NCBI GenBank assembly: GCA_903813345.2
Contig: CAIIXF020000007.1
Span: 19,517,564 to 19,581,563 of the forward strand
Source: Owenia fusiformis
Lineage: Eukaryota; Annelida; Polychaeta; Sabellida; Oweniidae
Direction of reading: 5' to 3'
DNA: 64,000 bases
Numbering within the stretch: the first letter of the stretch is position 1; every line of letters begins with the position of its first letter. Positions 6,401 through 64,000 of the stretch are shown piece after piece. Under the pieces are notes generated by a model. It was not told where the DNA came from. It was given only the letters and a program-made list of their open reading frames with translations, and did not search any database. Position numbers and translations under genes: made by a program.

Positions 6401-9400
6401 AAACGTTGTTGCTGATCTCTGCAGACACGTCATAGTAGCCCCAATCACTATAATAGTGCTATGAAAACAATAACAAACAAGGTATTTACATCGTTTTGAT
6501 TTTGAGCCACAAAATCGCAAAAGCATAATAGCATCAAAGTCCACTGACCTTAGTGCTTATAATTAAATGTATTTCAAGTAAACTGATATTGAAGGAACGC
6601 AAAAGTTTAAAAATAATCTGTAAGGTTTGATCTGTTCTTGTGTTCCTGCCGTTTGACACGAATTTATTCAACATTCAAACATGACCGTGCTCTATTCGAA
6701 TTTCTCAACCAATCAGAATGCAGCATAGCCAATATAGAACGTTCTCTAATTCTCCATAGATGCACGACCATGCTCTATTCAATCTGCAATTTGCATTGTT
6801 TTGAGTGACGTCACATCTCAGCTGCACATCTGGGGCTCTGTCCGGGGATAGCTGTTCTTTTTTACTCCCTCCGTAACTACTGTAACTATTTAACTATGGC
6901 TGACTTCAAGTTTATACACCGTATAAAATCTAAAACGGGGAGTAAAATAGAACAGCCCAAACAAATTCTAAAATTTTTCCGGCCGACTTCAGAATCTTGA
7001 CAGCATGCGTATTCTTCCTTCATGCCCGTTCCACAGACACGGCTTTTACTAATTTTTATGTTTGAATCGGAATAAATAATGATAGGCCATTCAATATGGT
7101 GAAATTCAGCACTCGTTGGACAGAATGTTAGTACAAATGCACTCACCTTCGGTTCGTGCTTTGTACAACATTCTGTCCAACTCGTGCTGAATTTCACCAC
7201 ATTGAATGGCCTATCATTATTTATTCCTTAAATAAGATACATGTCAGTTTTATAAAATGTGAGTATATTAATACCTGTATATTCGTTTGTAAAAAGGAAG
7301 GCTCAACTGGGATTATCAGAGGGGCGGAACCATCATCGAAGTTCCATTGAACAATAGCATTACTTGCGATATCACAGCCTGTCTGGTCAAGGTTGAAAAC
7401 TGCATTGCCAATGTCAGTTATATTTGAAATGACCATGACTGTTCCATCGGGAACACGTGATTCAACTCCCACAAATATGGTAGCAGTTTCTGAACCATGT
7501 TGATTTGAAATAGTTACTTCCACATTGTGGTAGTCCGACAAACCATTTCCTAAAGGGGTAAATGAACATTTTAGTCTATTTTGAACATTTAGTCACAAAT
7601 AACATGTAATAGCAAGCAAGATTCGCTATATTTGTGAAACGCTCGGGACTATATATTCCTCATTATTGTTAAATGTGGTTTTGCTTTTTTAAAAGCCACG
7701 TAGCAAAAATATATAGGTAAATGTTTTTATTGTTGACACATCAAATGATATGTTTGCTTATAATTACCTTACAGATACTATTAGCAACGTCTAAATAAAT
7801 TGTTTGAAAACTGTAAAGATAGGAGACCTAGTGTCATAACCCTGTGTACCATGTACAAGTAGTTTACCTTGTTGGACGTAAGAATGGGAAACATCGAAAA
7901 GTGACATCGGGCCAGTTGCAGAATTCAAGTCACTTATCACTGTGTCAGCCGTTGAATCACCCCAAACAATGGTGCCCGAAACACGCGAACCTTAGTAAAA
8001 ATATAAATAACATAAAATCGTTAGGAATAGAAAATGTAAAATCTTAAGAGGCAATTTTGGTAAAACATACAACTGTTTCCCAATGTAACTTTTATTTAAA
8101 GAATTATTCTGAAACATTTCAAACATCATTTTCTATCATGTCAGGCAATATGATTTGAGCAATATCATATCTTTCAATTAAATAACTTAAATGTTACAAC
8201 TGTCACTTGATCCCGGACACAAATAGTATACAAACCCTCCGTTACATCAGCAGTAACTACAATATCAGTTCCATAGGGCACATATTCGCTCGCAACAGCC
8301 AATAAAAGCCCTAAAAAAGATTAAAGAATATTACTGAACATGAAAGAAGAATAAAACATAATTATTTTACTTAAACACATGAATTGATAAGTCAGAATAG
8401 AAAATAATTCTATAATACGTATTCCAAACAGAGGTTTAACGTAAAGAATAGATATTTAATTTTACTCCAAACGAAAGGGCCAGTACATATCACAGTATAA
8501 CATAACACAGCAAGAAGACTGACATAGAAAAATACTCTCACAATATCCTAAAATATAAACTTACGCACAAAACACCGTCTAACACCCCTTTCCCCAATAA
8601 TGGGAATCAATATCATAATTGATTAAAAGCGAGAAAAGGACAATCATTCGTTAAAGCCATTGCAAAACATGTTGAGAATTGAAAACCATCCCGCTGTTTT
8701 TATTACACAACTTACAATGATAGAGTTATATTGTTTAAAATAAAATATCATATCATGTTATTTGGCAAAACAATTTATCTATTTTGGTGTTTGTAGTTCT
8801 AGTATACTTGAGCATTCAGTTTCAACAAATGGTGGGAAAATAAGACAAAATAGAAAATAAAAACTGTCTATCTACCCCGCCCCCCCCCCCCCCTAAAACA
8901 GAATCGGTTTGCAGAAAAATATTCCGGTTATAGTTTAATACAACAATAAGATTCCAATTCCATTAGAATTGATGACACAATATTTTATCAATGTGAGACA
9001 TGAACCTAAACTTCATATTTTTGATGAATATACTTACCAGATATTTCAGTGTCTAATGTAAACTCCCCACTTATATTTTCACTAGACACATCATTATCAA
9101 GGTTAATATCCACGATATACTCTCCTGGGGAGAGATCCGCTGTAGGTATGGTTAATGTTGCAACCGATTCACCCGGGGTGTCAGCTGCATATTCTTCTGG
9201 TTGCTGTTGATCTTCTATAAGGTAATTTTTATTCATAGAATTCGATATTATATGTAAAACAAACATTTGTAAAGGCTTTGTAATATGAGCGTTATTCGTA
9301 ACTTCAAAATAATAAAATAGACTTACCCGTTCTTGCCAGTCCTACGAAAACGTCGTAAAATGGGCTCAATCTGGCTGTGGTCGGGAAATATGTCTAAAAT

Positions 9401-12400
9401 AATTGGCTACTTCGTTCATAAACAGTCTTCAATACGTCCATCTCATTCGCAGTTCGTTCAGGTCGCACCACGTCGGTGTGCAACGTCGTATAACGCGTCC
9501 CTTAGTCTAGAAGGTCATCATGACCTGATTACAGAACGGTATGGTCGCCATTGAATTTTGAATCGATTCAAAACTCTAAATCACATTCCCCGTCCGGGAA
9601 AGTCCATGAAGTTCGTAAACAGACCGTAGAACGTTGAAGCTACGTTCATTCCGTTCGCACACAGTTTAAAAGCAGTTTTGAAGAACGCAGTGGCAACTTG
9701 TTTGGTGTGATAGCTATATTTTTAATAACTCGTTCATAAGCAGTCTTAAATACGTTCTTAATCAGTTTAAATCCGTTTGCAATTAGTTCTACCTCGTTCT
9801 GAATACGTCCTCGGACAGTGCAACTCGTTGTTAAAACGTCTCAGTAGGATTGAAGTACGACGGTTCCGTTCGTAGTACGTCCAGGTCGTCGTTAGTACGT
9901 TGTCACTCGTTCTAGATCTAATTGTAGAACGTATCGACCACGAGAACATTTTGAGCATGTGCTAAGTTCTAGAGGACCTACCCGTTCGAGTACGTTCGAT
10001 GAAGTTTGTAAATAGACCCCAAATGGTTCTAAGTACGTCCAGTCCGTTCGTACACAGTTGAAGCCCGTTTTCGAGAACGTAGTGAAAACTAGTTTGGTGT
10101 GATAGTAGGGTAAAGTAGATATTTGTAGAGTGTACATACAATTTTTATATATTCGAATATATTGTGACAATGATACATCACACAGATGTTTTGAATTATG
10201 TCATGCTGTATTTGCATTTTACAATGCATCACTCTGTATAATACTTGTATTTTACATCTACTTTGTATTATTGTATTCAGAAGTTAGTTTAGTCTTAGTT
10301 CAATTTTCTATATTGTAGTTTTTTAGTGACTAATATGTCATTGTAATAACATCACAGAGTCAATAAAAGATATATAGTACTATGTATACATGTGCTATTT
10401 CTCCAAAATACAAAAATACATATGAATCATATCAAAAACACAGCACAAACTAAACCATACCATATGGATTGGTATAAACTGAGACAAACCTGGCCGTTGA
10501 TATTTTATATATCCAAGATGGCAGACAGATTATCTGATTCAGTTTATGTGTATTTTCTATTGTATTATTACGTAACATCTATTAATTAAAGTTTGATGTA
10601 ACTTCTATTGCAGTTTATTGTTTTAGTTTAGTTACCCTACTATCACACCGAACCTTTTCTCACTACATTCTCGAAAACGGGCTTCAACTGTGTACGAACG
10701 GATTGGACGTATTTAGAACCATTTGGGGTATATTTACAAACTTCATCAAACGTACTCGAACGGGTAGGTCCCCCAGAACTTATTAGAACATGCTCAAAAT
10801 GTGTTCTTGGTCGTCACGTTGTACAATTAGAGCGAGTGACAACCTACTAACGACGAGCTGGACGTACTACGAATTAAACAGTTGTACTTCAATCCTACTA
10901 GGGACGTTTTTACAACGAGTTGAACTGTCTGAGGACGTATTGAGAAGGAGGTAGAACTAATTGCAAACGGGTTAAAAACTGATTAAGAACGTATTCATCA
11001 ACGAGTTGGCAAAAATATAGCTATCACACCAAGCAAGTTGCCACTGCGTTCTTCAAAACTGGTTTTAAACTGTGGTCGAGCGGTATCAACGTAGCCACAA
11101 CGTTCTACGGTCTGTTCACGAACTTCATGGACTTTCCCGGACGGGGAATGTGATTTAGAATTTTGAATCGATTCAAAATTCGATGGCGACCATACCGTTC
11201 TGTAATCAGGCCATGATGACCTTCTAGACTAAGGGACGCGTTATACGACGTTGCACACCGACGTGGTGCGACCTGAATGAACTGTGAATGATCGAGATGG
11301 ACGTATTGAAGACTGTTTATGAACGAAGTAGCTAATCATTTTAGACATATTTCCCGACCACAGCCAGATTGAGCCCGTTTTACGAGGATTTCGTAGGACT
11401 GGCAAGAACGGGTAAGAACTAGTTTGGTGTGATAGGGGGGTTAGGTACGATAAACTATTTGATCAACTACAAGTAGTTCCTAGCGTCTATTTTCTTATTT
11501 GGCATTGTTGGGAATTTAAGTATATGTAAGCTGCAGAAGGTAATTGATAAGGATCAGAGGAATGAGCGGAAGAACTGTAAATGGTAAAAGAAGACTTACC
11601 ATTCAGATATTCATTTATTGGTGATCCATTTAACAAACACGTATATCGTATTCGTGTACCCTGATGTACTGTTATAGATATCACAATATCATTACCGATC
11701 ACATGGCCAACTGCACCAACATCAAAGGCCGGGGTCGTTTCGAAGCCCGACGACAATATTGGATAGTTCACCTGGAAAATGATAAAATATAATGCAGTTC
11801 TATCCATTTTGGGGTTAAATGCTCTCACATGATGCCTGGATACATTTAATTTGTTCTTCAACGTATAAATTCTTTCTTCAGTACGAATGAATATGTGGCA
11901 TTGTTCATATACTATTTTGGTTTTTTGACGGTTATAATGGTTCCTTAATATTGGAGGATGTTTTAGACACTATTTAAAACTACACTGTGTTTAACGTTAG
12001 ATCCTTGTGCTTTATTTTCTTGTCAAGGATTTTACTTTTCAAATGTTTCTTTTTCTATTCGATATTCTCGTTCATTTTGACAATTGTTTACATCTATTTT
12101 TCAATATACATTGTATACATATCACTTATCCCAAATAAGCGTTTTTATTAACATAGCGTCTATTATCACAGTCATTATCATATTAAGTAGAGACACACAC
12201 AGCAGAACACTTCAAATATATTTACTGTTTAGATACAAGTTTATGAACTACTATTATTAATACTATACTAGTAATCACTCTTCATCAGTTTATATTGCTG
12301 TATTTGGAAAGAGATATTGTTACATTTGGACACTTGGGATAACAGTTGTATCTAGGATTTGGATTTCGTCTACCGTCATTCGGTAAGTGAAGAGCATTCT

Positions 12401-27400: not shown

Positions 27401-30400
27401 ATAGGATATCACAAATGATAATAATGAGATATACAATATAATAGAATGTTACAAATAATAATAATGCTGGCGACTGGGAATGATGAGTCATCCAAATACT
27501 TGTAAGCTGAGTCATTCAAAATAAGCTGAGTCAGCTAGAATATAGACATTTAGACAACTCTTAAGAATGTTATCTTCGACTCCATTGGCTTAACATGGGG
27601 ATATCATCATATCGACTTTTCGAGACTTCAAACCGCTATAACTATCTAATCAGATCGAAATTTGGTTTAAAGATTCTGATTCCTGAGAAAATTCTACCCT
27701 TAATTCATAACTCATACGTTAAATTTGGAGAACTTTTTATTTTGACCTACTTTTCGGACACCATATCTCAAAAGTGGGTCAAAATACTTTCTGACGGCAG
27801 AAAGCTAACACTATAAGCACACTCTTTGCTACCTGTATACAAAATTTTGAAGTAAATTATTAAAGTGTAGTGTCAGAATCGCAAAAATAAGGAAAAACTA
27901 TGAATTTGACCTAGATTTTGACCTAGGCATTTTGGTGTCCAAATTTTAAAGCTAGATAGCCTTCGAGGTCCCCTTCTTTTATAGGCTTTCAGAATGTTAA
28001 GCTGTACTCAGTTTATACCTGGTATTTTACACTTCAAAAAAATCTTTTTTCTCATTGACATAACATGGGGCACCAAATTTAGCGATTTTTGAGCTTTCAA
28101 AACGCCATAACTTCCGAACCGAAAGTCGGATTGAAATTTGGTTTGCCGATTCGGATTCCTGGGAAAATTCTACCCTTAATTCATAGCTCATATGTTAAAT
28201 TTGGAGAACTTTTTATTTTGACCTACTTTTCGGACACCATATCTCAAAAGTGGGTCAAAATACTTTCTGACGGCAAAAGGCTAACACTATTAGCACACTA
28301 TTTGCTACCTGTATACAAAATTTTGAAGTAAATTATTAAAGTGTAGTGTCAGAATCGTAAAAATAAGAAAAAACTATGAATTTGACCTAGATTTTGACCT
28401 AGGCATTTTGGTGTCCAAATTTTGAAGCAATGTAGCTTTTGAGGTCCCCTTCTTTTATAAGCATTCATTATGTTTAGCTGTACTCAGTCTATATCTTGTA
28501 TTTTACACTTCGAAAAAGTCTTTTTCCCCATTGACTTAACATAGGCACCAAATTTAGCGATTTTTGAGCTTTTAAAACGCCATAACTTCCGAACTGAAAG
28601 TCTGATCCAAATTTGATTTGCAGATTCAGATTCCTGAGATCATTCTACACTTATTTCATAACTCACATGTTGAATTTGGAGAACTTTTTGCTCTGACCTA
28701 CTTTCCGGACGCCATATCTCAAAATCGGTAAAAGTAATCAAAAATCTAATGTCATATCTTTGCTTCGGCTATTTCTTAACTACACAATGAGAACAAGATG
28801 AAGGAGTTCCGATAATTATAGAAGAAGATAATTGAAAGAATGTTGAAAATGTAAGATTTGACCTAGTTCTTGACGTTTGACCTAGATAAAAATTTGACCT
28901 AATTTCCCAGAAAGCCAGAAACATTCCTTAGTTAACCATGTAAGTTGGTTTAAGTAAGATGTTATAGTTGGTGAGAAAATCTGTATGGAGGAAGATGGAA
29001 AGAATAATAAAAACTAGACTTTGGAAATTGAACGAAGTTCAATTTCAGACTCCAGATCTAGACTTTTTTTAAGCCCAGTCATCTAAAATAAGCCGAGTCA
29101 TCCAGAATAAGCTGAGTCATCCAGAATAAGATGGATGGATAAAATAAGAAGGTAGGATAGGATAGAATGGGAAGGAACGATAGGATAGAATAAGAAAGAA
29201 GGATAGGATAGAACAGAATAGGAAGAAAGGATATGATAGGAGAGGATAGGAAGGAAAGGATACGAAGGAAGGATAGATAGGAAGGATAGGAAAGGATCAG
29301 ATAGGAAGGATGGATGAATTTTTCAATATTTTCTTCTCTACTCTTGACTTTCTATCAGGATACCATCAGATCGATTTTCCGAAATTTTAAAACGCCATAA
29401 CTTCCGAACCGGAAGTCAGATCTAAATTTAATTTAAAGATTCAGATTCCTGACAAAATTCTACCCCTAATTCATAACTCATACGTTAAATTTGGCGAATT
29501 TTTATTTTGACCTACTTTTTGGACACGCCATAACTTCTGAACCGGAAGTCGGATCGAAATTTGGTTTGCAGATTCGGATTTCTGAGAAAATTCTATTCTT
29601 AATTCATAACTCAAACGTTAAATTTGGAGAACTTTTTATTTTGACCTACTTTTCGGACACCATATCTCAAAAGTGGGTCAAAATACTTTCTGACGGCAAA
29701 AGGCTAACGCTATTAGCACACTCTTGGCTACATGTATACACAATTTCGAAGAATATAATTAAAGTGTAGTGTCAGAATCGCAAAAATAAGAAAAAACTTT
29801 GAATTTGACCTAGATTTTGACCTAGGCATTTTGGTGTCCAAATTTTGAAGCTATGTGGCTTTTGAGGTCCCCTTCTTTTAAAGGCTTTGATTATATGAAG
29901 CTGAACTCAGTCTATATTTCGTATTTTTCACTTCAAAAAAATCTTTTTTCCCATTGACTTAACATGGGCACCAAATTTAGCGATTTTTGAGCTTTCAAAA
30001 CGCCATAACTTCCGAACCGGAAGTCTGATTCGAATTTAGTTTTCAGATTCGGAATCCTGAGAAAATTTCCTATAAGACTAATATCCTCGACATTTGATTC
30101 GGAGAACTTTTTTTGGACCTCGTTTTCGGACACTGATATCTCGAAATCGGTTTGAGATATCAAAAAACTAAATCGATCCTAGGTTTCCTACTTTTTTATA
30201 AGGAACACAATGAAAAAAACCCGGATCAAAAATATTGAAGGACGACCGAGAAAATCGAAAAAAGTGACAAAGTACTGGATTTGACCTAGTTCTTGACCTT
30301 TGACCTAGATAAAAATTTGACCCAATTTCCCACCAACTAAATACTGAACCTAAATAAACTGTATTATGATCTTTACTGGATACCTTATAGTTATTGAAAA

Positions 30401-33400
30401 AACTCTTAAAGAAAAATAATAATAACTAGACTTGTAAATTGAACAAAGTTCAATTTAAGACTCCAGATTGATTTACTTGAGTAAAGAGCTGACTAAGTAA
30501 CTGAGTAGGAAGCTGAGTAAGTAGATGATTAAGTAATTGAGTACGTAGCTGAGTAGGTAGCTGAGTAAGCAGCTGAGCAGGTAGCTGAGTAAGTAGCTGA
30601 GTAGGTAGCTGAGTAAGTAGCTGAGTAGGTAGCTGAGTAGGTAGCTAAGTAGGTAGCCGAGTAGGTAAGTAGGTAGGTAAGTAGGAATTTTTGACCGGAA
30701 GTCGGATTGAAATTTGGTTTGCAGATTTGGATTCCTAAGAAAATTCTACCCTTAATTCATAACTCATTTTATTTTGACCTACTTTACGGACACCATATCT
30801 CAAAAGTGGGTCAAAATACTCTCTGACGGCAAAAAACTAACACTATTAGCACACTCTTTGCTACCTGTATACAAAATTTTGAAGCAAATCCTAAAAGTGT
30901 AGTGCCAGAATCGCAAAAATAAGGAAAAACTATGAATTTGACCTAGATTTTGACCTAGGCATTTTGGTGTCCAAATATTGAAACTAGGTAGCTTTTGAGG
31001 TCCCCTTCTTTTATAGGAATTCATTATCTTAAACTGTACTCAATCTATATCTCGTATTTTACACTTCAAAAAAATCTTTTTTCCTTGACTTTCTATCAGG
31101 ATAACATCAGATCGATTTTTCTCGAAATTTCAAAACGCCATAACTTTCAAACCGGAAGTCGGATTTGATTTAAAGATTCGGATTCCTGACAAAATTCTAC
31201 CCCTTATTCATAACTCATACGTTAAATTTGGCGAATTTTTATTTTGACCTACTTTTCGGACACGCCATAACTTTGGAAATGGAAGTCGGATCAAAATTTG
31301 GTTTGCAGATTCGGATTCCTGAGAAAATTCTACTCTTAATTCATAACTCATATGTAAAATTTGGAGAATTTTTTATTTTGACCTACTTTTCGGACACCAT
31401 ATCTCAAAAGTGGGTCAAAATACTCTCTGACGGCAAAAGGCTTACACTATTAGCCCACTCTTTGCTATCTGTATACAAAATTTTGAAGCAAATCCTAAAA
31501 GTGTAGTGCCAGAATCGCAAAAATAAGGAAAAACTATATATTTGACCTAGATTTTGACCTAGGGATTTTGGTGTCCAAATTTTAAAGCTAGATAGCCTTC
31601 GAGGTCCCCTTCTTTTAAAGACTTTCAGAATCTTAAGCTGTACTCAGTCTTTATCTGGTATTTTGCACTTCAAAAAAATCTTTTTTCTCATTGACATAAC
31701 ATGGGGCACCAAAATTAGCGATTTTTGAGCTTTCAAAACAACATAACTTCCCAACGAAAAGTCGGATCGAAATTTGGTTTGCAGATTCGGATTCCTGAGA
31801 AAATTCTACCCTTAATTCATAACTCATAAGTTAAATTATGAGAAATTTTTATTTTGACCTACTTTACGGACACCATATCTCAAAAGTGGGTCAAAATACT
31901 TTCTGACGGCAAAAGGCTCTCACTATTAGCACACTCTTTGCTACCTGTATACAAAATTTTGAAGCAAATCCTAAAAGTGTAGTGCCAGAATCGCAAAAAT
32001 AAGGAAAAACTATGAATTTGACCTAGATTTTGACCTAGGCATTTTGGTGTCCAAATTTCGAAGCTATGTAGCTTTTGAGGTCCCCTTCCTTTATAGGCAT
32101 TCAATATGTTAAGCTGAACTCAGTCTATATCTTGTATTTTACACTTCGAAAAAGCCTTTTTTCCCATTGAATTAACATGGGCACCAAATTTAGCGAATTT
32201 TGAGATTTCAAAACACCATAACTTCCAAACCGGAAGTCGGATCGAAATTTTGTTTTCAGATTCGGATTCCTGAGATAATTTTACACTTATTTCATAATTC
32301 ACACGTTGAATTTGGAGAACTTTTTATGTTCTGACCTACTTTTCGGACACCATATCTCAAAATCGGTAAGAGTAATCAAAAAACGGTTTACCATTCGTAA
32401 TGAGCTTTTTCTAAGGAACATGATGAAAAAAACCAGGAGTGAAAATACCGAAGGACGACTGAGAAAACTTGTAAAATAGTGAAAAACCACGATTTGACCT
32501 AGTTCTTGACCTTTGACCTAGATAAAAAGTTGACCTAATTTCCCAGAAACTAGGCCTCATTACCTAGTTGACTGTGTTAGCAGATTTAAGTAAGTCCTTC
32601 TAGTTACCGAGAAAACGTGACAAGAGAGAAAGAATAATAATAATAAGAAAACTGGCAAAAGCAATAGACTCCAGATTTTCAATCTGGAGTCTAATAATAA
32701 TAATAATAATAATAAGAAGAAGAAGAATACTGGCAAAAACAATAGACTCCAGATTGACATCTGGAGTCTAATAAAAAAAATAATAATAAGAAAACAGGCA
32801 AAAGCAATAGACTCCAGATCTCAATCTGGAGTCTAATAATAGGATATTACAAATGATAATAATGAGATAACGTATACAATAAATTTTAATACTATAGTTA
32901 TACAAACGATGATAATGAGATAATATATACAACATAATAGGATGTTACAAATGATAATAATGTGATAATATATACAATATAATAAGATGTTACAAATAAA
33001 AATAATGAGATAATATACATAATATAATAGGATATTACAAATGATAATAATGAGATAACGTATACAATGTAATATGATGTTACAAATTAAGATGATGAGA
33101 TCATACACATGATATAAAAGGATTTTTGTGAGTGATTGTTAAATTGATAAATATGATTGTAGTTGCAAATTAACTGATTGATTAATTTCAAAACCATGTG
33201 CAGTAAGAGGTTCATATCCTTCTGTCGCATACTTTCTAATGCCAGTGAATCAAATAATTTTACGATTTTCATAATCATAATTATCATATTAAAAACCAAT
33301 TTGTGTTACCTCATAAAATGGAAACAAAACATCTTCCATTTCAATTTCCATTACCTCTGTATTTCTCGATATAATCGAATAGGTATAATTCGAGAGCTTT

Positions 33401-44481: not shown

Positions 44482-47400
44482 CTATCCAGACAGTCCAACT
44501 TTCCCCTCCATCGCTTTGTCCAATAACAGGGCAGTTGAGATACCACCTAGTACGTCCAGTTGTGAGAGATTTAGACCAATCTCCTTGTTAATCCATTGCA
44601 CCATTTCTACAGCCATGAGAGAGTCTATACCATAGTCTGTCATGGCCCTGTTAATGTCTATTTGCTCTGTAGGAGTACATAGTGTCTCGGCTAGTTTGGT
44701 GACCACCTTCTGTTGTAGTTCCTCCCTACTGCTCTCACACTTAACTGAAATCACATCACACGTAATTATTAAAGCTCCTGGTCATAAGTTCTTATTTTTT
44801 AATAATTGTTTTATTTTGTATAAAATAAAGGAGAGAACAATTTGTACAATGTACTTAGGAGTGAACAAAGCGATTTTGATAATTCATGGAGTTAAATCAA
44901 CATATGTATGAAGTTCTTGTTTTTTAACATTTGAACCTGACTCACACATTAGAATTACAAGCGATCGTAAAAAATAATTATTTGCAATATAACTCATTAC
45001 ATTTAGCATATTACTAGTACAGTGAAACCTGTCTAAGTGGACACCTCTCGAGATATCGAACACCTGTCTCTACTAGACACCCTTCCCCCATACATACTCT
45101 ACTGACTTCTGTATAGATTACCCTCTCTGTAATGAGCACCTAACAACATTGAAATTTTTTCTTGGCAAGAAGATGTTCATAGGTTTTACTGTATATCCCA
45201 AAACATAAATATGAGACGAATAGTTTTAATTGAACGACAATCCGCATACCTTTTCCAGAGAGAGACTGCGTAATAAGATGTCTGAATACCATGTGCTGCG
45301 AGTGACACACTCTAAGAGTGTCGTCCCACTTCTGAAATATCAAGGAAATACAATATAAAAAGTACTCATTAACAATGTAAAGTTAGTAATACTAACAACA
45401 GCCTTTGTACTTTACTCACCCTGTCATATATTTCTGTCACGAATGCTACCCTTGAAGATTCAAGATATCAAAATACAGAATACAAAGAAATAAAACTTAC
45501 ATGACTTATGTCTGAATATTCGTGATAATTTTGTGCCGTTGGATAATATATGCTACATAATATAATTACGATGCTTTAGATTTTGAAATATGTATGTATT
45601 TTTCAATTCTGCCCATTATGCCTCTGATCTTTAAAATGATATATTAATGGCTCACCATGTTTGCAAAGGCAACCACTGGGTTAACTGGTGGCGTCTGTAA
45701 TGCTTTGCCAAGAAACTCTAGACACTCATTAATGTGGAGTGTTTTCAAGCCTTTGGAGTCTGTGATCTGGAGCGCCGTCCGATTTCTCTCTAGAAAGCCT
45801 GCACCGCGAATGGCTCCAAATTGTATCGACAATGCTGGTAGGCCTTGCTCGTGCCTTGTTGTAGCTAGGGCGTCGAGGAAGGCGTTCGCCGCACAGTATG
45901 CACTCTGTTCCAGATTACCATACATGGTGGTAATAGAGGAAAACATGACGAAGTAGTCCAGGTTCTTGTCGATTGTAATCTTGTGGAGATTATCAGCTCC
46001 TTTTGCTTTGGCGTTGAGAGTTCTTGTAAGTTGTTCCTCTGTAAGTTTGTTGATGCTAGCGTCATCGATAACAGCTGCTAGATGAAATACACCCTTTAAC
46101 GGTCTTCCTGATTTTTGGCAGAGACTGGTTGTTGCATTTGAGATCTTTTCTAAATCACTGGCATCTGCTTGGAGTTGATAAACAATACAACCACTTCTTT
46201 GAATGCTTTGTATCGCACATTTTTGTCTGAATGTTTTGCATCCACTTCTAGACACAAGTCCAATGTGCTTTGCCCCCCTTTCTGACATCCAACGGGCGAG
46301 TGCCAACCCTGCGCCTCCCATTCCCCCAGTGATGAGAAAACACCCGTCATCAGAAAATATCTGCTTTGATGGCATAATGACATTAGGCACGAAATCATCC
46401 CCAATAGTAAATACCACTTTGCCAACATGTTGTCCCGTCATCATCCATCGTAGGGTTTCTTTGTAAAGTGAAATGTCACGTCTTGTTATCGTTATTGGTT
46501 TAAGCGTCCCATCACCAAGAAGACACATGACCTTAGATAGTAACTGGTTAATCCTATCTGGTCTTTTCTTCATTAAGACATCGATCTGAACGGAAAGCAG
46601 CGAAACATTATCCAAAAATGGCTGCATATCAAGAGCTGAATTATCAAGTATGTCTCGTTTCCCAATTTCACAGAATCGCCCACCATGAGAAAGTACCTCC
46701 ATTCCACGTGTTATGAAATCACCACTTAGTGAGTTAAGTATAACATCTACACCCATCCCGGACGTCCACTTCATGACATCATCGCCAAATCCTAGCGATC
46801 GGGAGTCAGTTACATACTGGATACCATGGTGTTCTTTGAGGAAGGTTCTTTTTTCCTCTGTGCCTGCCGAGCAAATTATGTTTGCACCAATCATTTTAGC
46901 AATCTGTATGGCAGCTTGGCCAACTCCACCGCACGCTGAATGAATAAGGACTGTTTCATTTGGTTGGAGATTTGCCCTCTCGATAAGAGCATGATACACT
47001 GTCATAAATATGATTCCCATACCAGATGCTTCTTCTAGAGATACATTATCAGGTACCCTTGTTGTGAGAAGGCTGTTGCAGATCACTTCCGATGCGAAAC
47101 ATTGATCAGCAAATGCGATTACTCTATCACCGACTCTAAATCCAGCTACGTCATTGAATACCTCCGTCACGATTCCAGCGCATTCCAGACCAAACTGTGT
47201 TGCTATGTTAAGATCTTTCAGATTACCTGTAGCCATCATCACATCTTTGAAGTTGACGCCAGACGCGACTACCTTTACTCGTATTTGACCATGTTCCAGA
47301 TTATGTGAAATCATCTCTCTAAAGGTTATGTTATCAATGGAGTGACTTCCTTCAAAATCTAGACACCAGTTAGGATTTTCTTTTGTAGAGGTTCCACTGG

Positions 47401-50400
47401 GCAAGTGAGTTCTAACCATCCTGGGAACCATAAGACTATCTTCGTTAAGTACAGCCTCTCTTGGTAGAATATTTCCTGCTTCTATCTGTTGGATAACATG
47501 GTCCATACTTGTTCTGGTAATATCAGTCTTAAATGAATAAATAGGGAATTCTGATATTTCATTTGTTGCCACTCTGTTAAAACCAGTCGCTAGGTCATTG
47601 TATGGTTTGTTAACATCATCTTGAATGACTACACATAGGCTGTTTATTCTCGCAGCTTCTCTGATGTTGTTGACAAAACGTAGATAATCAGATAAGCACT
47701 CAGTAGAAGACCAGGTGAATATGACATTGACTGGAATCTTTGAGTCTTGGATAACCTCTTCTAGCTGAGCATATTCTGTGATCGTTCGACGGAGAGAAGT
47801 TACTGGCTTGGATCGGAGATTCGGGTCGTATATGACAGTCGTGGTTTCATTTTTATGATCAACATTGCTCGATTTATTTCCGACAATGATGGAGTGAAAG
47901 AACTCTGATGGAGTTGAGAATCCTGTAACATTGTCAAATCCCCCCGTAGACATCAGATTCACCCACCCTTTTTGGTCGAGCCAACAGCGTCCTTGTCTGA
48001 AATCGTCAAATACCCAGCACAGCTCAAGAGAACCAAATATGATTTCAGCGATGTTTTCAATGTTGCTACCTTCATAAAGTAGCAGCCATCCTTCTGGGGC
48101 CAACAAGTCACGCATGTTTTTCAGACCATTGTTCAGATCTACTGCAGAATGGAGTGTATCCATAGAAACAATGATGTCAAAGGTGCTAGGTACAAATCCT
48201 TGACTTGCAACATTTTTCTCTATATCCAGTTCACGATACTTGATGTTGTCATACCCTTCTAGTGTCTGTTGGGCATGTGGGAAGAACGTTGAGTAAAGAT
48301 CTGTGAATACGTATTCAACCTTTCCTTGTTCTACCAATTCTTTCAAGGGCTTCAGCATGTATTGCGCCATACCACCCATCCGCCCGCCTACTTCAAGGAC
48401 TCTAACAACTTGTTTTGATTTCAGACTGCTTAAGACCCCACGATGAAGGATCTCCGCTCCAGCCTTGTAGTAAATTCGGGTTGATAGGGAATCAATAAAG
48501 TAGAGGGGCAGACAATCTTTTCCAAAGAGGATTTGGACACATTTACTTGGTTCCACCAAAGCTTCAGGAAGAGCTTCGCCCATTTTTCTAATCATGTTTA
48601 TCTCCGTATTGAATTGGGGAACTTTATTTTCAACATCTAGCAAGAGCGTTTTTATTTCTTCCTCTGGTAGCTTTACAGTGTCACGTGCGACAATGTGCTT
48701 TAACCTCTCTACGAATCTGCCATTTCTGCTGTGGTATTTGGACTCGGGTACTTTCTCAAGGGCGACCCTGGCGTATGCTGCACAAGCAGCTTGAAGTTTC
48801 GGAACAAAGGGGGAAACTGCTTCAATTTCAGACATCTCATCTGGGTACATGGTCTTTAATGTGTGTTCTTCAAATATCTCTGCACACGATGAGACCGGTG
48901 GGAGACATGCCTCGGATGGTTGCCACTTAGTTTCATACATACATGAATCTACATCAACATTCTGCGTATTTGTGTCCATATTTTGAGCGACGAAGCCTTT
49001 AATATCAACCAGAAGTTCATCGTCGTCTGAAAACAACTGTATGTCTGCTTTTATTACGCTTGGGTTCACGTCAGTTATTTTCACAACTGCAGACAATGGC
49101 TCCTCAGTCGGAATATGATCAACTGCCATTGTGAGCCACTCGATCTCAACTGGAATGTATGCTGATGTACTCTGGCATGTCAGAATTGCAAGCTGGAAGC
49201 AACTGTCCAGAATGTTACAACATATTCTTTCTTTCTGATTTCGTTTTCCTACCAATCGTCCCTTTGATGTACCATCATTTATCGATACTTCTTGCAGAAC
49301 TTGAAACTCGTGACCGTAATCGAGTCCAATACCTTCGAAATACTTGTAGATTTTCTCTTTGGTGAGACAAAGACTGGTAGAAGCAGGGTTGAGATCTTCC
49401 ACAAAAGAAATCTCTTGTATCGGCTTTTTTGTAGTATCTAACAGTGCCTCCATGTGTGTTGTAGATCCGGTAATAAGGCTAACCTTTTTCCCTTTTTTAA
49501 CCAATTCTAGATGAACAGATTTCTCCTTTTCCTCCTCACTGAGAAGTAGGACATTCTTAAACCTAATGTCCTTCATTGTAGGTGGAGGTTGAGTCTCTTC
49601 TGTGCAACGTTGGATGATACTCTCAATGTAGCCTGCTCCCGGGAATGTCACCTTACCAAGAACTTTATGGTCCTCTAGAAACGGAAAATCTTTAATCGAT
49701 ATCTTTCCATCTGTAGACTTGAACGTTGTTTCGACTAAACCTAAACGTCTTTGACGAACAAATTCTGCTTCAGACCAATGGCTCTGATGTTGCCAAGGAT
49801 ACCTGGGTAAGGGTGCCCAGACAGGGCAATTCTCCGAGATATTCGACCAATCTACAGACACCCCAGCTATGTAGAGTTGTGCGGCTGCAGATAAGAGTGT
49901 TGTGCTGTCATCTTTCTCCCTCTGACCTGATGTGAAGCCTAAGGGGGAAGGAAGCGAAAGATCTTTTGCAGTGTGGTTGACAGATCGTAGAAGGGTTGCA
50001 GATGCTCCACATTCTATGAATAAATCAGCTCCTGTCTCAAGAATCTTTCGAACCGCTGGTTCAAATAAGACTGGTTTTCTGATTGTTTCCCACCAGTACT
50101 GTGTATCAAAGTGACCTGTTTTGATATCCCCAGTCACAGTTGAATACATCGGAATTCTTGGTCTCACCTTATTCTTGATACATTTTGAGAGCTTTTTCAT
50201 GAAACCTTCCTGGATGGGATCCATGTATGCAGTGTGGTAAGCAGAATTAACTCTCAGTTGTTTTACATTTGAAGGGTTGGCCTTTGCCAGCGCTTCAACT
50301 GTCTCTAGTTTCCCAGCAACAGTAACAGATACAGGTGAGTTGACACAGGCCAAATGTAAATCATCATAATTTTTACATAGTTCCAATGCTTCGTCAGCAG

Positions 50401-53400
50401 ACATCCTTATGGCTGCCATTCCTCCGTTTCCAAACATCTTTGCTTGTTCCTGACTTCTGTACAGAGCAACTGCGATTGCCTCGTCCCACGTTATACCTCC
50501 GCAGGCAAATGCAGCGGCGACTTCTCCCAAGCTGTGACCGACAACAGCAGCAGGGGTGATACCCCATGATGCCCATAACTTTGTCAGTGCTATTTGGTGG
50601 AACACGATAGCGGGAGGTGAAACTTCAGTTTCGTTGATAATATCATGAAGATGTCTTCCCTGTTTTGGTTGATCAGCAAAAACACCATATCTCTCTAACA
50701 ACGACCACCCACTGAGCTTCTTGAAGATGGTGTCGGACCTGTTGATAGCATCGTGGTATACTTTATAAGACCTATACAGCGATGAGCCCATTTTGCCCCA
50801 CTGTTGGCCCTGACCTGGATAAACGAAACATATTTTCCTCTGTTCTTCTGATTGTGTTGAAAGCGACCCTGCGTATGTTTGTATCGGTCTGTCATCTATA
50901 AATCTTTGAAGTTTCTCCCTGAAGTCTACCCCTGAGTTAGCAATAACTACCAATCGTGACTCGTAGTGTTTGCGTTTAATTGCAAGCCATGACACGATAC
51001 CCTGTGCGTCTACATCAGACGTGAAATTCATCCAGGCTTTTGCAGCATCCTTTAAAGCTGGTTCACTTTTAGCGGTTATAGGGATCATCAGTTGTTTGCC
51101 CTCTTTGTCTGAATCACCAAAAGTCCACCCGGCAGAACCTTTGAAACGAGGAATATCTTCTGGAATGTATTCTTCTATAATAGCATGAGCAAGAGCTCCT
51201 CCGAATCCAAAACTATTAACACCAAAAATGTGTTTCTTGTTACTCGGCAACTCTTTAACAGTCTGTTGAATCTCGATTCCTAAGTTCTCCAAATCTATGG
51301 CTGGATTTGGTTTAGTGTAGTTGATGGATGGGCATAATTTCCTTTCGTGAGCCATGAGTGCAACCTTGATTGTGCTAACCGCCCCTGATGAACATTCCAT
51401 ATGCCCAAAGTTGCTTTTAGATGAGCCAATAGGGAGTGCTTCTGTTGTATGGTTCCTATGGGGTTTGAAGGCTTCACCAATCGCTTCCGCCTCAATGGGG
51501 TCCCCGACGGGTGTTCCTGTCCCATGGGCCTCTACATAGGACACATCTCCCATTGGAACACCGAATCGTTCGTATGTTGTTTTTATGACTTTTTGTTGAC
51601 CCTTGGTTGATGGCATTGTGATACTCTGGTTATGACCATTATCAGCGATGGCAGTTCCCAATATGGTACAATAGATATGGTCACCATCTGCAATTGCTGT
51701 CTCGAGAGGTTTAAGAATCATCGCACCAAAGCCCTCGCTCCTAACATAACCCTTGGCGTTGGCGTCAAATGGGCAGCTCTTTCCCTCTGGTGAAAGAACT
51801 CCAAGAGCACTGAAGCCAACAGTTATCTCGGGAAGTAAAAGAACGTTACTTCCAGCAACCACAGCAGTCTCACATTCATTGTTCCATAGAGATGTACAAG
51901 CGAGGTGAAGAGCGGTCATTGATGCTGCACAAGCAGTGTCCACTGCAAAGCTCGGTCCTTTGAGATCAAAAGCATATGAAAGACGATTAGCAGCCACGCT
52001 ATGTGCCACTCCTGTATGTGTGTAGGAATTCATTAGCGTCTTGTCAAACACGACCCCCATTGGGTAGTCCATCATACCTATACCAACAAATACGCCACAT
52101 GTTTCACCGACATCTTCTGGTTTAATTCCCGCATCATCAAACGCTTCCTGTGTGACCTCGAGGCTATGTCTCTGTTGGGGATCCATCATGGCTGCTTCAC
52201 GAGGGGAAATCTTGAAAAATGTGTGGTCAAACTTATCAATGTCTTTTATGAAACCACATCGTTTTGTCACGTGTGTTCCTGGTTTGGATTGATCTGCGTT
52301 ATAATAGGCTTCTGTGGACCAACGGTCTGCTGGGATATCTGTTATCGTGTCTTTACCATTTGAAATGACATCCCAGAAGTCAGAAGTACTGTTTACATCA
52401 CCAGGCATTCGACAACCTATCAAAGAATCATGTTAATACATAGGCAAGGGAATGAATGTGCATTGTTCATTGAAATGATTATTTTGATACGTCAAATTAA
52501 AATGTTTCCAGTAATTTTTCGGGTATTACGAGTAGTAACAGGCAAGGCTACAACAACTGCATGAAAATTTACATTGAGCATGTCACATTGTTCTCAAAGT
52601 CGTAGTAGTTGCTTTGACGTAACGTCAAAATAATAAAATTGAGGAATTGCCTGTGTTCGAGTTTGGTGAGCTTTTACGTTTTCTCAATTTAAACCAACTT
52701 AAAAGTCAAGTTTCATATTATAATTTGACTGAAAGGACCAGGTATAGTTTGGCAAATGATTTTAGACACTCGTATATTTTACCTTTGAGTACTTTCCCAA
52801 TTCAAATATGACATTTCTTATTAACACAATATGTTATCTTTCATGTAAATTCTCAAGGATGATAAAAATATCAATCGAACACGAAAAATTATGAATAGGG
52901 AACCCATGTCAACATTTTTTTCAAAATGTTGAACCTATTTACTTCAAAAGTCGTTTTTCTGATTTTTATTGCATGAAAAGATTATTCAACAAGGGATCTA
53001 AACTTCTTCAAAAGTGAAATGGTATTGAAAGTCTTTCCATGGCGAAAATTATGCTGAAAACAATTGATAACATGAATTTACCCTATGGGAAAATAACATC
53101 TGATATGTGGGTTTTAACTTTATTGCATTTCAATACACTTCACCTGAAAGAAATCATATTGTTTTAATAAAAAACACGGTATTTATGGCCAGAAAGTACT
53201 CATGGAGAAATGATTGCCCAAAATCATTTACTGTACCATACTATACCTGGTCCTTCAGAGAAAATACTCTGGTTTCAGAATAATTATATGTATTTGGTTT
53301 CCAAATGAGGCCGCCGCAATTCATACATTTAGTGCCTCCTTTTAGTTACATAGACGGAAATCCTCGTCAAAGTAACATGGGTAATATTCTTCAATATAAC

Positions 53401-56400
53401 AAAAGCGGGGGACTAAAAATATAAATTGCGATTTCTTTTAAAACCAAACTCAAACTGATGCAGTTCCTCTATAGTGTTACTTTGACGTTGGAGAATAGAA
53501 ATGTCAGATAAATTCAAAAAAATCACTACGAAGAAAGCGAAATGCCATTATTTATTAAGAATTCCCATTTATGGAAAGTAAGGCATGTTTACTTACCTAT
53601 GCCGACAATAGCAATTTTCTTATAACCCATTGGTAACCTCGATTTGGTTTGTGTTGGCGTAAATGGTTGTGAATTGGTTGGGATATCATCTACGTCAGAT
53701 GTCTGTAAACATGAATAATAATTACGTCAAAATGTTTGGATTAAAAAACATTGTAAGCATTTCTTCAATCATCATCAATCAATCATCAATCAACTTTGCG
53801 GACTAATAAACATGCATAATGTAAAGACAAGTATAAGATAACGTATACCGGTATACGAGACTCCCTCAAAATTATTATAGATTTATGGATTTCCCACCCA
53901 AAAGTTGATTGTTCCCGAGGCCTGCAGGAATATGTAGTCAGGAAATCATGTACACTCCCCTCCACAAGTTTGGCAACCCTTACTCCCTCATTGGACCACG
54001 TGTTAAATCCTCTTCATGTTAGAATTTTTATTTACATAACCCCAGTTCCAATAGGTTTAACCTGGGATTGTCGATTTTCAAAACTTCATCAGATTTGTCA
54101 TCAATATCCGACCTATTCTTATTGTTTAATAAAGGTATTCGAAATGATGTCAATTTATATTTCAAGTCCTTAAAGGTAGTCTTTTCTTTACAGACTATGC
54201 AAATAAATATTTAAACATAAATATCCCGTTATCCAATGAACGAGTCAGAGTTGCCAAACTCACGAAGGGGAGTGTATCATGGCAATGGTGATGAACTGAT
54301 TTTGCTTTCAAACTACGCCCCTTTCTCTCTTCCATCATCATCCTATCATCAGCTCTTTGTCTAGGTTTCAGAGAATTCCTTTCATTAGAACAAGGATGTC
54401 TCGTTGTCTATACAACTAGTTGTTTTGTATTATTTTACTTCCTCATTCCTTATGCTCGATCCCATTGATTGATTACAATCTGGATTTAGTTTAAAGAAGT
54501 TGGAAATAGATTTGGTTCTTTTAAATGTGATTCGAGTGATATCAGGCATGAAAAATAAAATAATTGAATCAGAATAAAATGCCCTATCAAAAGTCCTTTT
54601 ATTATTCAAATGAAGAATCGACATTGTTTACCGAGTTACACGTATCTAATTTTTACAACAACTCTAGTTCATTTACTTAAGAGAATAATGATTTATTTCC
54701 GACGTTTCGCGAGTTATCCTATCAGCTTTTTAAAGTAATCTTAAAAAAGCTGGTAGGATAATTGGCGAAATGTCGAAAATAAATCAATATTCTCTGAGTT
54801 ATTGTTTACATTGTTACATGAATGTTTGCTTGTACAGCCATTCACTAAATCATTATTAAAGTGTTTGTGTTCGTATGATCTATGTCATTTTGAAAACAAG
54901 ATAAACAGGTCATTTACATGACAAATGTCACCACCTTGTAAGTTATTGCAAATTGCTACACATGCCGAACTCCGGATGCCGAACACCGTCCACAAAAAGT
55001 TGGAAACTATAATTAACAGTATGTCACGAATTTTGATGAAAAATAGATGGCGGTGTGTTTTCGACAGCATGGAGAGGATAAGAATACGTCAGAGAATCCA
55101 TAAATTCACCACACGCTGCAAATCAGGTTGATAAAATCAAATCTTGTATTCTTTAGCCTTTTCAAAAACGTGCATGGTAGTATCAGATTATTTTATTGAA
55201 CACATAGAGTGCCAAAGACGCTGGGTTTAAAATTCCATTTTTTATTTTCTATTTGATTTTCAAATCAGATGTCATATCTTTCCTCAACTCGTGGTAATGA
55301 ATATCAATACTCGTTCACTACAACAACTAGTGCAAATGATATACCCCCCCCCCCATTGAACTACGTGTTTATGTTTGATTTTTTTCACTTACATAGCCTA
55401 TAAAGAAAAATCTACTTTTAGGGCTGGAAATATGAATTGACATTATTTCAAATACCTCCAATTTTTCTAAAAAAAATCAACGATTACAATAGATCGGAGA
55501 TTGATGACAAATCTGATGAATTCTTGAAAATCTACATTTCCATGTAAACCAACGGGAAATGGTAGGTTTGCCGCAAGTCATATGACAGAATATCCGTCTA
55601 TCTGTGAGTTCTCGCAAAAATACAAATTAGGTAGTTAATTTAATTTGCTATCTTTATTTAACAAAAAATGATACGTTTCTTCGGGCTCAACAAAGTTACA
55701 GGTCTTCAAAGTCAAAATTATTTTTCAAAAACCTCTCCCATTGAAATAACACAGGAGGTGAAAAATGATTTTCAAAAATGACTTTGAAGCTCTGTAATAT
55801 TCATACAGTAAGCTAAACACTTAGCATACAAAGATTTTTAATTCTCTATATCAAAATATTTTTTGGTGAATCTTTTACTGAATAGATATCCTGAAATCAG
55901 ATTTGCCCCGAACCCATCATTTCCCATTGGTTTACATGGGAATGACGTTTTTCTAAAATTCATCAAAGGACGATTCTCGGTTTGGAGAACAGCCTCCTGG
56001 GCTAAAAAAAATTTCATGAAAAATATAGAAATATTACCCAAATTAAACTATGAATATTCAAAAGAGGACAATTAAATCTACAAGATGTAAAAATAACAAA
56101 TTGGTCTGAAGCAGGGATAATGCTCAAATAGACCGATTCAATAAAATACAAGTCTCGATTTGGGGAAAGAAGTTCATCAGTGTACTGCGCTGATATTTTT
56201 TTGCGAAAAATCTAGAAATATTACCCAAATTAAATTATGACTATGCAAAAGAAGACATTCAAATCTATATTATGTAAAAAAATCAAATTTGTCCGAAGCA
56301 GGGATAATGCTCATTTAGATTGATGAACTTCGTTCTCCAAACCGAGAATCGTCCTTTATCATCCATTTTCGACCTATTGCTATTGAGGAAAAATTGGGAA

Positions 56401-56650
56401 AATTTGGAGGTATTGGAAATAAAGTCAAGTTACATTTCCATCAATTTCATAAGTACTTTCTCCGCAGGTTATGTAAATAAAAATTCAGATATGAATTTAA
56501 GTATTGCAATGGGCTACCTACCTCGCTCATACTGCTCAAAGGTCCTGTAAAGCCAGCTTCAGAGGGATCGGAATTGATGTCATGTGCGATGTCTGAGACA
56601 GCGTTGTCGGTTGGATCGTTCCCTCTCTGGTCACCATCACGAGGTGCCAT
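44482..56650 (-). CDS. Animal type I polyketide synthase, KS-AT-DH-MT-ER-KR-ACP
   Basis: Five exons: 56522-56650, 53597-53702, 45656-52416, 45250-45331 and 44482-44744, all with GT-AG junctions and matching phases, give 2446 residues. KS: DTACAAS (Cys about 241), VEAHGTGTPVGDP and NFGHMEC (His about 376 and 417). AT: GHSLGE (Ser about 707) with SAYH (His about 806). DH: DHKVLGKVTFP (His about 995) and LDSCFQ (Asp about 1149). Methyltransferase: LEVGGRMGG (about 1419). ER: SACGGVGQA (about 1907). KR: GGMGGAG (about 2109) with Ser and Tyr in SSITT and SAYCAAN. ACP: YGIDSL (Ser about 2401). No thioesterase follows. The cytosolic enzyme should build a reduced, possibly methylated chain from malonyl-type units. 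The N-terminal 70 residues are acidic and unstructured. An ATTAAA at 44367-44362 could be the polyadenylation signal. Confidence 0.93.
44745..45249. other. PKS intron 4 with a pogo-type MITE
   Basis: This 505-base intron separates the KR-ACP linker exon from the ACP exon. It contains a 172-bp element, 45020-45191, with ends CAGTGAAACCTGTC and (inverted) CAGTAAAACC, flanked by TA on both sides. That matches the pogo/Tigger-type terminus. Confidence 0.7.
45020..45191. mobile_element. Pogo/Tigger-type MITE
   Basis: The ends CAGTGAAACC and (inverted) CAGTAAAACC are flanked by TA (45018-45019 and 45192-45193). The interior of 172 bp is non-coding. CAGT-starting termini with TA duplications are typical of pogo/Tigger relatives. 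It is inserted in the last intron of the PKS gene. Confidence 0.65.
52417..53596. other. PKS intron 2 with a TIR element
   Basis: This intron splits the KS start (IAIVGIG, CRMPG) and is phase 1. It contains the TIR element 52729-53258. The remainder is AT-rich, with GTAACGTCAAA-type short inverted pieces and nothing coding. Confidence 0.6.
52729..53258. mobile_element. TIR element, family shared with 61286-61996
   Basis: The left end CTGAAAGGACCAGGTATAG and right end (inverted) CTGAAGGACCAGGTATAG belong to arms of about 80 bases. The interior shares long blocks with 61286-61996, for example TTATTGCATGAAAAGATTAT and TGGCCAGAAAGTACTCATGG. It has no coding capacity. Confidence 0.7.
53953..54274. 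mobile_element. Mariner/Tc1-type MITE, CACTCCCC termini (short copy)
   Basis: The ends CACTCCCCTCCACAAGTTTG and (inverted) CACTCCCCTTCGTGAGTTTG are flanked by TA at 53951-53952 and 54275-54276. It is the same family as 34788-35507 with a shorter interior (322 bp). It sits in PKS intron 1. Confidence 0.75.
54680..54796. repeat. Hairpin repeat
   Basis: GAGAATAATGATTTATTTCC, CGTTTCGC and ATCCTATCAGCTTTTTAA on the left pair with their inverted counterparts ending GAAAATAAATCAATATTCTC on the right. Arms are about 56 bases with a very short loop. It lies in PKS intron 1. Confidence 0.75.
55340..56500. repeat. Rearranged copy of the CACTCCCC MITE interior
   Basis: Blocks such as GGTCTTCAAAGTCAAAAT, AACACAGGAGGT, GACTTTGAAGCTCTGTAA and CAGATTTGCCCCGAACCCA match 34960-35200. 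Internal duplications are also present (ACCCAAATTAAA twice, GAAGCAGGGATAATGCTCA twice). Neat TIR ends are not visible, so it is a fragmentary or composite copy. Confidence 0.6.
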
Positions 56651-62359: not shown

Positions 62360-64000
62360 CTATCACACCAAACTAGTTCTTACCCGTACTTGCCAGTTCT
62401 ACGAAAACGTCGTAAAACGGGCTCAATCTGGCCGTGGTCGGGAAATATGTCTAAAATGATTATGGCTACTTCTTTCATAAACAGTCTTCAATACGTCCAT
62501 CTCATTTGCAGTTCGTTCAGGTCGCACCACGTCGGTGTGCAACGTCGTATAACGAGTCCCTTAGTCTAGAAGGTCATCATGACCTGATTACAAAACGGTA
62601 AGGTCGCCATCGAATTTTGAATCGATTCAAAATTCTAAATCACATTCCCCAGTGGCGGATCCAGGAACCAACAAGGGCGGGGGGGCCAAATTTCCAGTCA
62701 GAGAAAAAAACTTCCAAAAAACTTCTTACCCCCCTATCACACCAAACTCGTTCTTACCCGTTCTTGCCAGTCCTACGAAAACGTCGTAAAACGGGCTCAA
62801 ACTGGCTGTGGTCGGGAAATATGTCTGAAATAATTAGCTTCTTCGTTCTTTAACAGTCTCCAATACGTCCATCTCGTTCGCAGTTCGTTCAGGTCGCACC
62901 ACGTCGGTGTACAACGCCGTAGAGCGCGTCCCTTAGTCTAGAAGGTCATCATGACCTGATAACAGAACGGTATGGTCGCAATCGAATTTTGAATCGATTC
63001 AAAATTCTAAAATCACATTCCCGTCTGAGAACGTTCATAAAGTTCAAAAATAGACCTTAGAAAGTTGCAGCTACGTTCATTCCGTTCGCACACAGTTTAG
63101 AACCAGTTTTGAAGAACGCAGTGGCAACTTGTTTGGTGTGATAGCTATATTTTTGCTAACTCGTTCATAAGCAGTGTTAAATACGTTCTTAATCAGTTTA
63201 AACCCGTTTGCAATGAGTTCTACCTCGTTCTCAACACGTCCTCAGACAGTTCCACTCGTTGTTAAAACGTCCCTAGTAGGATTGAAGTACGACGGTTCCG
63301 TTCGTAGTACGTCCAGCTCGTCGTTAGTACGTTGTCACTCGTTCTAATTGTAGAACGTGACGACCACGAAAACATTTTGAGCATTGTCTAAGTTCTAGAG
63401 GACCTACCCGTTCGAGTTCGTTCGTTGAAGTTTGTAAATAGACCCCAAACGGTTCTAAGTAAGTCCAGTCCGTTCGTACACAGTTGAAGCTCGTTTTCGA
63501 GAACGAAGTGAAAACTAGTTTGGTGTGATAGTAGGGCAATATGCCCCAATGACCAATAAACCGTGGTGTCGTTCCAAGTACTTTCGATGAAGTTTGTAAA
63601 TAGATCCCAAACGGTTCTTAGTTCGTCCAGTCCGTTCGTATACAGTTGAAGCCCGTTTTCGAGAACGTAGTGAGAACTAGTTTGGTGTGATAGTAGGGTT
63701 AGGGACCCAAAAAAATTTTGGGCCCCTAAAACCGAAAAGTGAGCACAAATTTTGAAATTTTTGAAGCCCATTTTCTTCAAAATTTGGCCTAAAATAAGGC
63801 CTTAGAAGGCCTTTTTTCGGGGCCCAACTTAGGGGGAGGGGGCGGGTCCCACGCCCCCCCCCCCCTCCGGATCTGAACCAGTTTTGAAGAACGCAGTGGC
63901 AACTTGTTTGGTGTGATAGCTATATTTTTGCTAACTCGTTCATAAGCAGTCTTAAAAACCTTCTTTATCTAAACCCGTTTGCAATTAGTTTTACCTCGTT
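62360..64000. repeat. CGTTC-periodic modules, several truncated copies
   Basis: Modules begin CTATCACACCAAACTAGTTC (62360; 62738 in a nested copy) and end TTTGGTGTGATAG (near 63142, 63531, 63695 and 63920). They match the arms of 9323-11434. The 62360 copy is cut off at about 62650 by a GTGGCGGATCCAGG end; purine and C-rich sequence at about 63700-63880 with CTCCGGATCTG seems to be the other side. The array runs off the window. Confidence 0.75.

Follow-up and report, generated by a model that had tools for sequence, protein, structure and literature searches.

The question raised by this locus of the annelid Owenia fusiformis is whether a gene on the minus strand of a stretch of 64,000 nucleotides (the window, that is, the whole stretch of DNA that was analysed) encodes an intact polyketide synthase (PKS) and, if so, to which of the known multidomain synthases the enzyme is related; the matter is of some weight, as the animal PKSs with known products are few. 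The explanation that accounts best for the observations is that the gene quite probably encodes an intact iterative type I animal PKS, of the 'true' animal PKS type, having an SpPks1-like architecture and no thioesterase (TE).

According to the exon model built on the window sequence, the gene runs from 56650 to 44482 and is composed of five exons, whose phases agree, separated by four introns of 2819, 1180, 324 and 505 nt, all of the GT-AG type. Exon 1 (56522..56650, 129 nt) carries the start codon (ATG at 56650, with in-frame stops upstream), an N-terminal extension and the donor GTAGGT; exon 2 (53597..53702, 106 nt), with AG/GT borders and the phase kept, encodes the end of the extension and the first strand of the KS (KKIAIVGI); exon 3 (45656..52416, 6761 nt) encodes the remaining KS, the AT, the DH, the putative pseudo-methyltransferase (pseudo-MT), the ER and the KR, while the linker between KR and ACP is found in exon 4 (45250..45331, 82 nt) and the ACP, together with the stop codon, in exon 5 (44482..44744, 263 nt). 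The coding sequence thus assembled measures 7341 nt, corresponding to 2446 residues, and is free of internal stops; 6761 of its bases (92.1%) belong to exon 3, and the coding sequence from residue 79 to where the KR ends is free of introns, two of the four introns being N-terminal and the other two near the ACP. A chance origin of the open frame is excluded, since from stop to stop it is 2262 residues long, to be compared with a maximum of 185 (mean 129) for the longest open frame of each of 50 single-base shuffles of the window; the GC content of the exons (0.40-0.53) also differs from that of the introns (0.29-0.33). Retention of intron 3 would yield a protein lacking the ACP, because translation would meet a stop as the fourth codon beyond the donor of exon 3 (VSH, stop; 45644-45655, minus strand).

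Along the protein, Pfam recovers the domains in the order KS (with its C-terminal extension)-AT-DH-MT-ER-KR-ACP, the best family for each domain having E values from 4e-82 (KS) to 1e-10 (ACP); in the NCBIfam search, the best 25 of 67 families all score below their cut-offs. The KS (51317..53621, residues 71-445, with intron 2 inside; PF00109 4e-82, PF02801 1e-36) shows the active-site Cys241 (51931-51929) and, in the same motif set, EAHGTG and NFGH; the AT (49859..50827; PF00698 9e-61) has Ser707 in GHSLGE; the DH (48983..49711; PF21089, PF14765), aligned with that of pig FAS, has His995 in HKVLGKVTFP and Asp1149 in LDSCFQ; the ER (46412..47293; PF08240, PF00107, PF13602) has the GGVGQAA cofactor loop; the KR (45806..46345; PF08659 6e-56) has GGMGGAG, the Ser of FSS, Tyr2252 and the Asn of AYCAAN, and the ACP (44545..44739; PF23297, PF00550) has Ser2401 in GIDSL, the Pfam match being followed by a tail of 20 residues. 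Catalytic or attachment residues are therefore kept in KS, AT, DH, KR and ACP, the ER being judged by its cofactor loop and by its overall similarity to FAS only (the ER-KR half scores 258 bits with pig FAS). The original prediction had placed at exactly 44482-56650 five phase-consistent exons, with about 92 percent of the coding sequence in one exon of 6.76 kb, and all of this is borne out, as is its layout of domains; the intact reducing loop stands for the DH and KR residues and, within the terms in which the ER was judged, for the ER as well, while of the functional enzyme making a reduced polyketide there remains, as far as can be read from the sequence, an animal PKS that looks complete and has its reducing loop intact, an active MT being unsupported.

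As to the extender unit, at the position which we take to be a second specificity site of the AT the window enzyme has AYH, where pig FAS carries AFH, Dictyostelium PKS16 SFH and mycocerosic acid synthase, an enzyme which uses methylmalonyl, ASH; the residue ahead of the His is aromatic as in pig FAS, unlike in mycocerosic acid synthase. At the other site, the extracts of PMC7280274 associate GHSMGE with methylmalonyl and GHSLGE with malonyl. The occurrence of both GHSLGE and AYH in the window AT makes malonyl-CoA the likelier extender unit.

No thioesterase was recognized by Pfam in the protein, nor was a thioesterase or any other plausible domain found when the minus strand between 44.48 and 38.0 kb was scanned in its three frames, a downstream thioesterase exon being what the original prediction had regarded as contrary to its reading; a MadL match in the 3' flank (12.4 bits, E 0.16, with a cut-off of 25) is read as noise. 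In the 5' flank, from 56.65 to 64 kb, the three frames of each strand contain no Pfam domain.

The alternative explanations considered below overlap in part with the preferred one, and the probabilities given to them do not sum to one. The first, rather unlikely, is that of an SpPks1-like pigment synthase releasing an unreduced aromatic product. It is favoured by the shared architecture (in the excerpted text of PMC11414698, both SpPks1 and CrPKS are KS-AT-DH-pseudoMT-ER-KR-ACP enzymes without TE) and by a motif of the KS: GMMD, found in the window at residues 192-195 (52067..52078, minus strand), its first Met lying 48 residues before Cys241, is reported in the same text near the KS active site of every sea urchin, sea star, sea cucumber and brittle star examined, GLMD being present in 17 of 18 crinoid genomes. 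GMMD is absent from all 81 microbial KSs compared, one of which has a gap at the site, and a text search of the PKS-related literature, as far as the text of these sources extends, found it only in PMC11414698. What speaks against a pigment synthase is the KR, in which Tyr2252 is present along with the Ser and the Asn, whereas SpPks1 and CrPKS are described as missing the KR tyrosine; an intact KR could nonetheless idle. Since this tyrosine is present, unlike in SpPks1, the window enzyme is, to judge from its sequence, most likely a reducing relative.

The second alternative, to which we give a low probability, is a PKS that methylates by means of an active C-methyltransferase, like those of mollusc mo-clade 5, a possibility that may coincide with the preferred explanation in the other domains. 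The domain in question (47927..48421, minus strand; PF08242) is by sequence a PKS C-methyltransferase, matching CurJ at 96 bits and having eight matches in the PDB with E values of at most 0.001; its recognition by Pfam, as well as the conservation of the His and the Glu at the LHA (LHS in the window) and LYE positions, would agree with activity. The SAM motif I, however, reads LEVGGRMGG in the window, in place of LEIGAGTGG (four) or LEVGAGTGG (one) in the best five of the eight PDB relatives, and among 15 bacterial relatives, coming from four of the eight genomes searched, the GAGTG core is found in 13 and the glycine that in the window is replaced by Arg is kept in all 15. An AlphaFold model of the domain (mean pLDDT 77), whose first Foldseek match is the CurJ C-MT (5thy), might also be quoted in favour of methylation; the predicted C-MT fold is, however, the expected one, the more so as the underlying alignment was built from bacterial C-MTs and is biased toward this fold, and it does not decide on activity. 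The domain is thus probably, if with some doubt, a pseudo-MT, given GGRMGG and the Arg at a position where all 15 bacterial relatives have the glycine, although the conserved His and Glu leave room for some activity; pseudo-MTs are carried also by SpPks1 and CrPKS (PMC11414698, in extract) and described for FAS (PMC10764717, in extract).

Improbable, and somewhat more so than methylation, is the third alternative, that of an animal FAS-like PKS (AFPK) or of an animal FAS which, after duplication, was left without its thioesterase. The domain order, which is that of FAS minus the TE, and the similarity of the ER-KR half to pig FAS speak for it; the KS argues for a different kinship. Against the PDB, the window KS scores 371 bits with CurL, 366 with PikAI, 349 with Pks13, 341 with Dictyostelium PKS16, 308 with MAS and 292 with LovB, and 245-259 with animal FAS (the top row, 7zma, reaches 603 bits as the sum over two KS copies), and EcPKS1 and EcPKS2 are absent from the best 60 of the 69 matches. 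When the KS of pig FAS is the query, in contrast, EcPKS1 and EcPKS2 score 371 and 357 bits, the other PKSs not exceeding 275 with the exception of the two-KS 7zma (404). As the AFPKs lie near FAS with the FAS query and the window KS is closer to the PKSs, the latter is by score neither an animal FAS nor an AFPK. The gene structure points the same way: in the extracts of PMC10764717, AFPK and FAS genes are intron-dense, except for large exons in the pseudo-MT, whereas the window gene has four introns.

The trees are less informative. The KS alignment search returned at least 593 bacterial stretches and, among 39 candidates, one viral locus; the latter and the 80 best of the bacterial stretches make up the 81 loci used; the 91-row tree comprises these, the window KS and nine PDB rows (including the second and not the first KS copy of 7zma, and truncated sequences for pig FAS, LovB and psoA), and the 35-row tree the window KS, the same nine PDB rows and 25 of the 81 loci. 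In the larger tree the window KS joins Dictyostelium PKS16, pig FAS, LovB and psoA (90/82, unstarred), the last three being nearer one another (98/81); in the smaller one, whose bootstrap is not settled, this grouping dissolves and gives way to one (68/82) in which the window KS, pig FAS and five bacterial rows come together, a weak placement which, with an AU p of 0.37 for window plus pig FAS, would suit a FAS origin. None of the five clades tried on the 35-row tree is rejected by the AU test (p 0.14-0.39, the lowest for window plus locus L001), and several branches are long; both trees containing a single FAS and neither an animal PKS nor an AFPK, they leave the position of the window KS unfixed.

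Bacterial homologues are, on sequence comparison, distant yet general: the protein of exon 3 finds matches in all ten bacterial genomes searched (best 637 bits, 34% identity, residues 5-1176), in one of which the KS-AT-DH part and the ER-KR part both find their match, at 38%, in a single frame of 2578 codons, while peptide patterns drawn from the same protein matched one stretch in genome contigs, none being confirmed, and none in viral contigs. That the gene was acquired recently from bacteria, or belongs to a symbiont, is nevertheless very improbable, because the single exon of 6.76 kb, the bacterial frame just mentioned, the five bacterial rows of the weak 35-row group and the best KS identity (47%, with a bacterial locus among the best 80 of at least 593 stretches, in a comparison set without animal PKSs, so that the closest relatives could not appear) are opposed by four spliceosomal-type introns, by animal-type neighbours, by whole-protein patterns that confirmed no relative in genome contigs and by the grouping with eukaryote rows in the 91-row tree.

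The window itself is, judging from its content, animal-like, since exons for PKD repeats and an EB module and a mariner gene lie in it together with the PKS gene. Taken by themselves as signs of phylum, GMMD would suggest echinoderms or allied animals and the small number of introns molluscs, both only weakly. Among ten other frames, Pfam recognizes PKD repeats in four (two above the cut-off and two below), an EB module in one (above), a C-type lectin in one (below) and a mariner transposase in one, and nothing in three. The scattered exon-like frames between 449 and 37646 (minus strand), with PKD repeats, an EB module and the weak C-type lectin match, probably belong to one long polycystin-1-like gene downstream of the PKS gene; a weak F5/8-C match occurs in the read-through of 14-28 kb. 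The mariner-type frame (1863-2981, plus strand; 372 codons between stops, with PF01359 and PF17906) is uninterrupted, which suggests that the copy may be young. A tandem repeat of 476 nt forms two arrays, of about 2.3-2.6 copies each and 82-90% match, at 27653-32512, and there are related interspersed repeats, in both orientations and 66-96% alike, at 9322-11444 and 62381-63716; Rfam at gathering thresholds yields no match in the window.

An intact iterative type I animal PKS of this kind, whose gene is presumably expressed, would work as follows: the AT would load malonyl units onto the ACP, the KS would lengthen the chain over successive rounds on one and the same set of domains and KR, DH and ER would reduce it to varying degrees, giving a partly reduced product of medium length; the MT-like domain would serve as a scaffold only, and the product would leave without a dedicated domain, by lactone or pyrone closure, by hydrolysis or through a separate enzyme. 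Much more tentatively, and with a low probability, it may be proposed that an enzyme of SpPks1 architecture with a live KR makes short chains limited by the KS (about C12) which are partly reduced and not folded into naphthalenes; if this is true, the live-KR enzyme would represent the functional condition that preceded the loss of the KR in the aromatic pigment enzymes. A reducing enzyme that is intact, has a pseudo-MT and is encoded mostly by one exon is in any case a practical target for expression, S. cerevisiae BJ5464-npgA being the host reported for EcPKS1 and CrPKS; and kinship to SpPks1, which is suggested by the architecture and by one four-residue motif compared by published description, would, if confirmed, offer a means to test how a pigment synthase arose from a reducing enzyme through the loss of the KR.

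Among the known systems, animal FAS, EcPKS1 and EcPKS2 share the domain order of the window enzyme, whose ER-KR part is akin to that of pig FAS; the KS scores of FAS and AFPKs, however, are far from the window KS, FAS has a TE where the window enzyme has none, and the window gene is intron-poor, so that the animal FAS-like PKS named by the original prediction as a possible relative is disfavoured, while the sea urchin PKS it also named agrees in architecture and KS motif. Medaka OlPKS, involved in otolith formation, is likewise a type I animal PKS, its exons numbering six (five in the window), but PMC4604110, in the part available, lists it as KS-AT-DH-KR-ACP, without MT and ER. The canonical PKS genes of molluscs, some of them with a condensation domain, have few introns, as in the window; theirs are clustered at the N-terminus (Lin et al. 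2024, PMC10764717, in extract), whereas two of the four in the window are near the ACP end. The closest counterparts by layout are those in Table 2 of PMC4604110, compared by description, where KS-AT-DH-MT-ADH-KR-ACP is given for S. purpuratus Pks1, where a mark on the KR denotes a missing active-site residue, and, with the KR unmarked and no function stated, for the lancelet proteins XP_002605916, XP_002610100 and XP_002605913, two more having an extra element; the architecture of the lancelet proteins equals that of the window enzyme. As PMC4604110, PMC11414698 and PMC10764717 already report similar cases in the parts available, the architecture and the large exon, though real, are not new and are less surprising than the original prediction implied, the former being tabulated for lancelets and the latter having its parallel in the few-intron genes of molluscs: the window provides a new example of a layout known from sea urchins and lancelets. 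SpPks1 and CrPKS, finally, resemble the window enzyme in domain order, in the missing TE and, probably, in the pseudo-MT, and SpPks1 also in GMMD, for which CrPKS has GLMD; the distance of the motif from the start is greater by about 60 residues in the window (M193) than in SpPks1 (M133) or CrPKS (L130), the products of the two are aromatic, with 12 and 14 carbons, and both lack the KR tyrosine that the window enzyme retains as Tyr2252, a live KR beside a GMMD KS being the one feature worth following.
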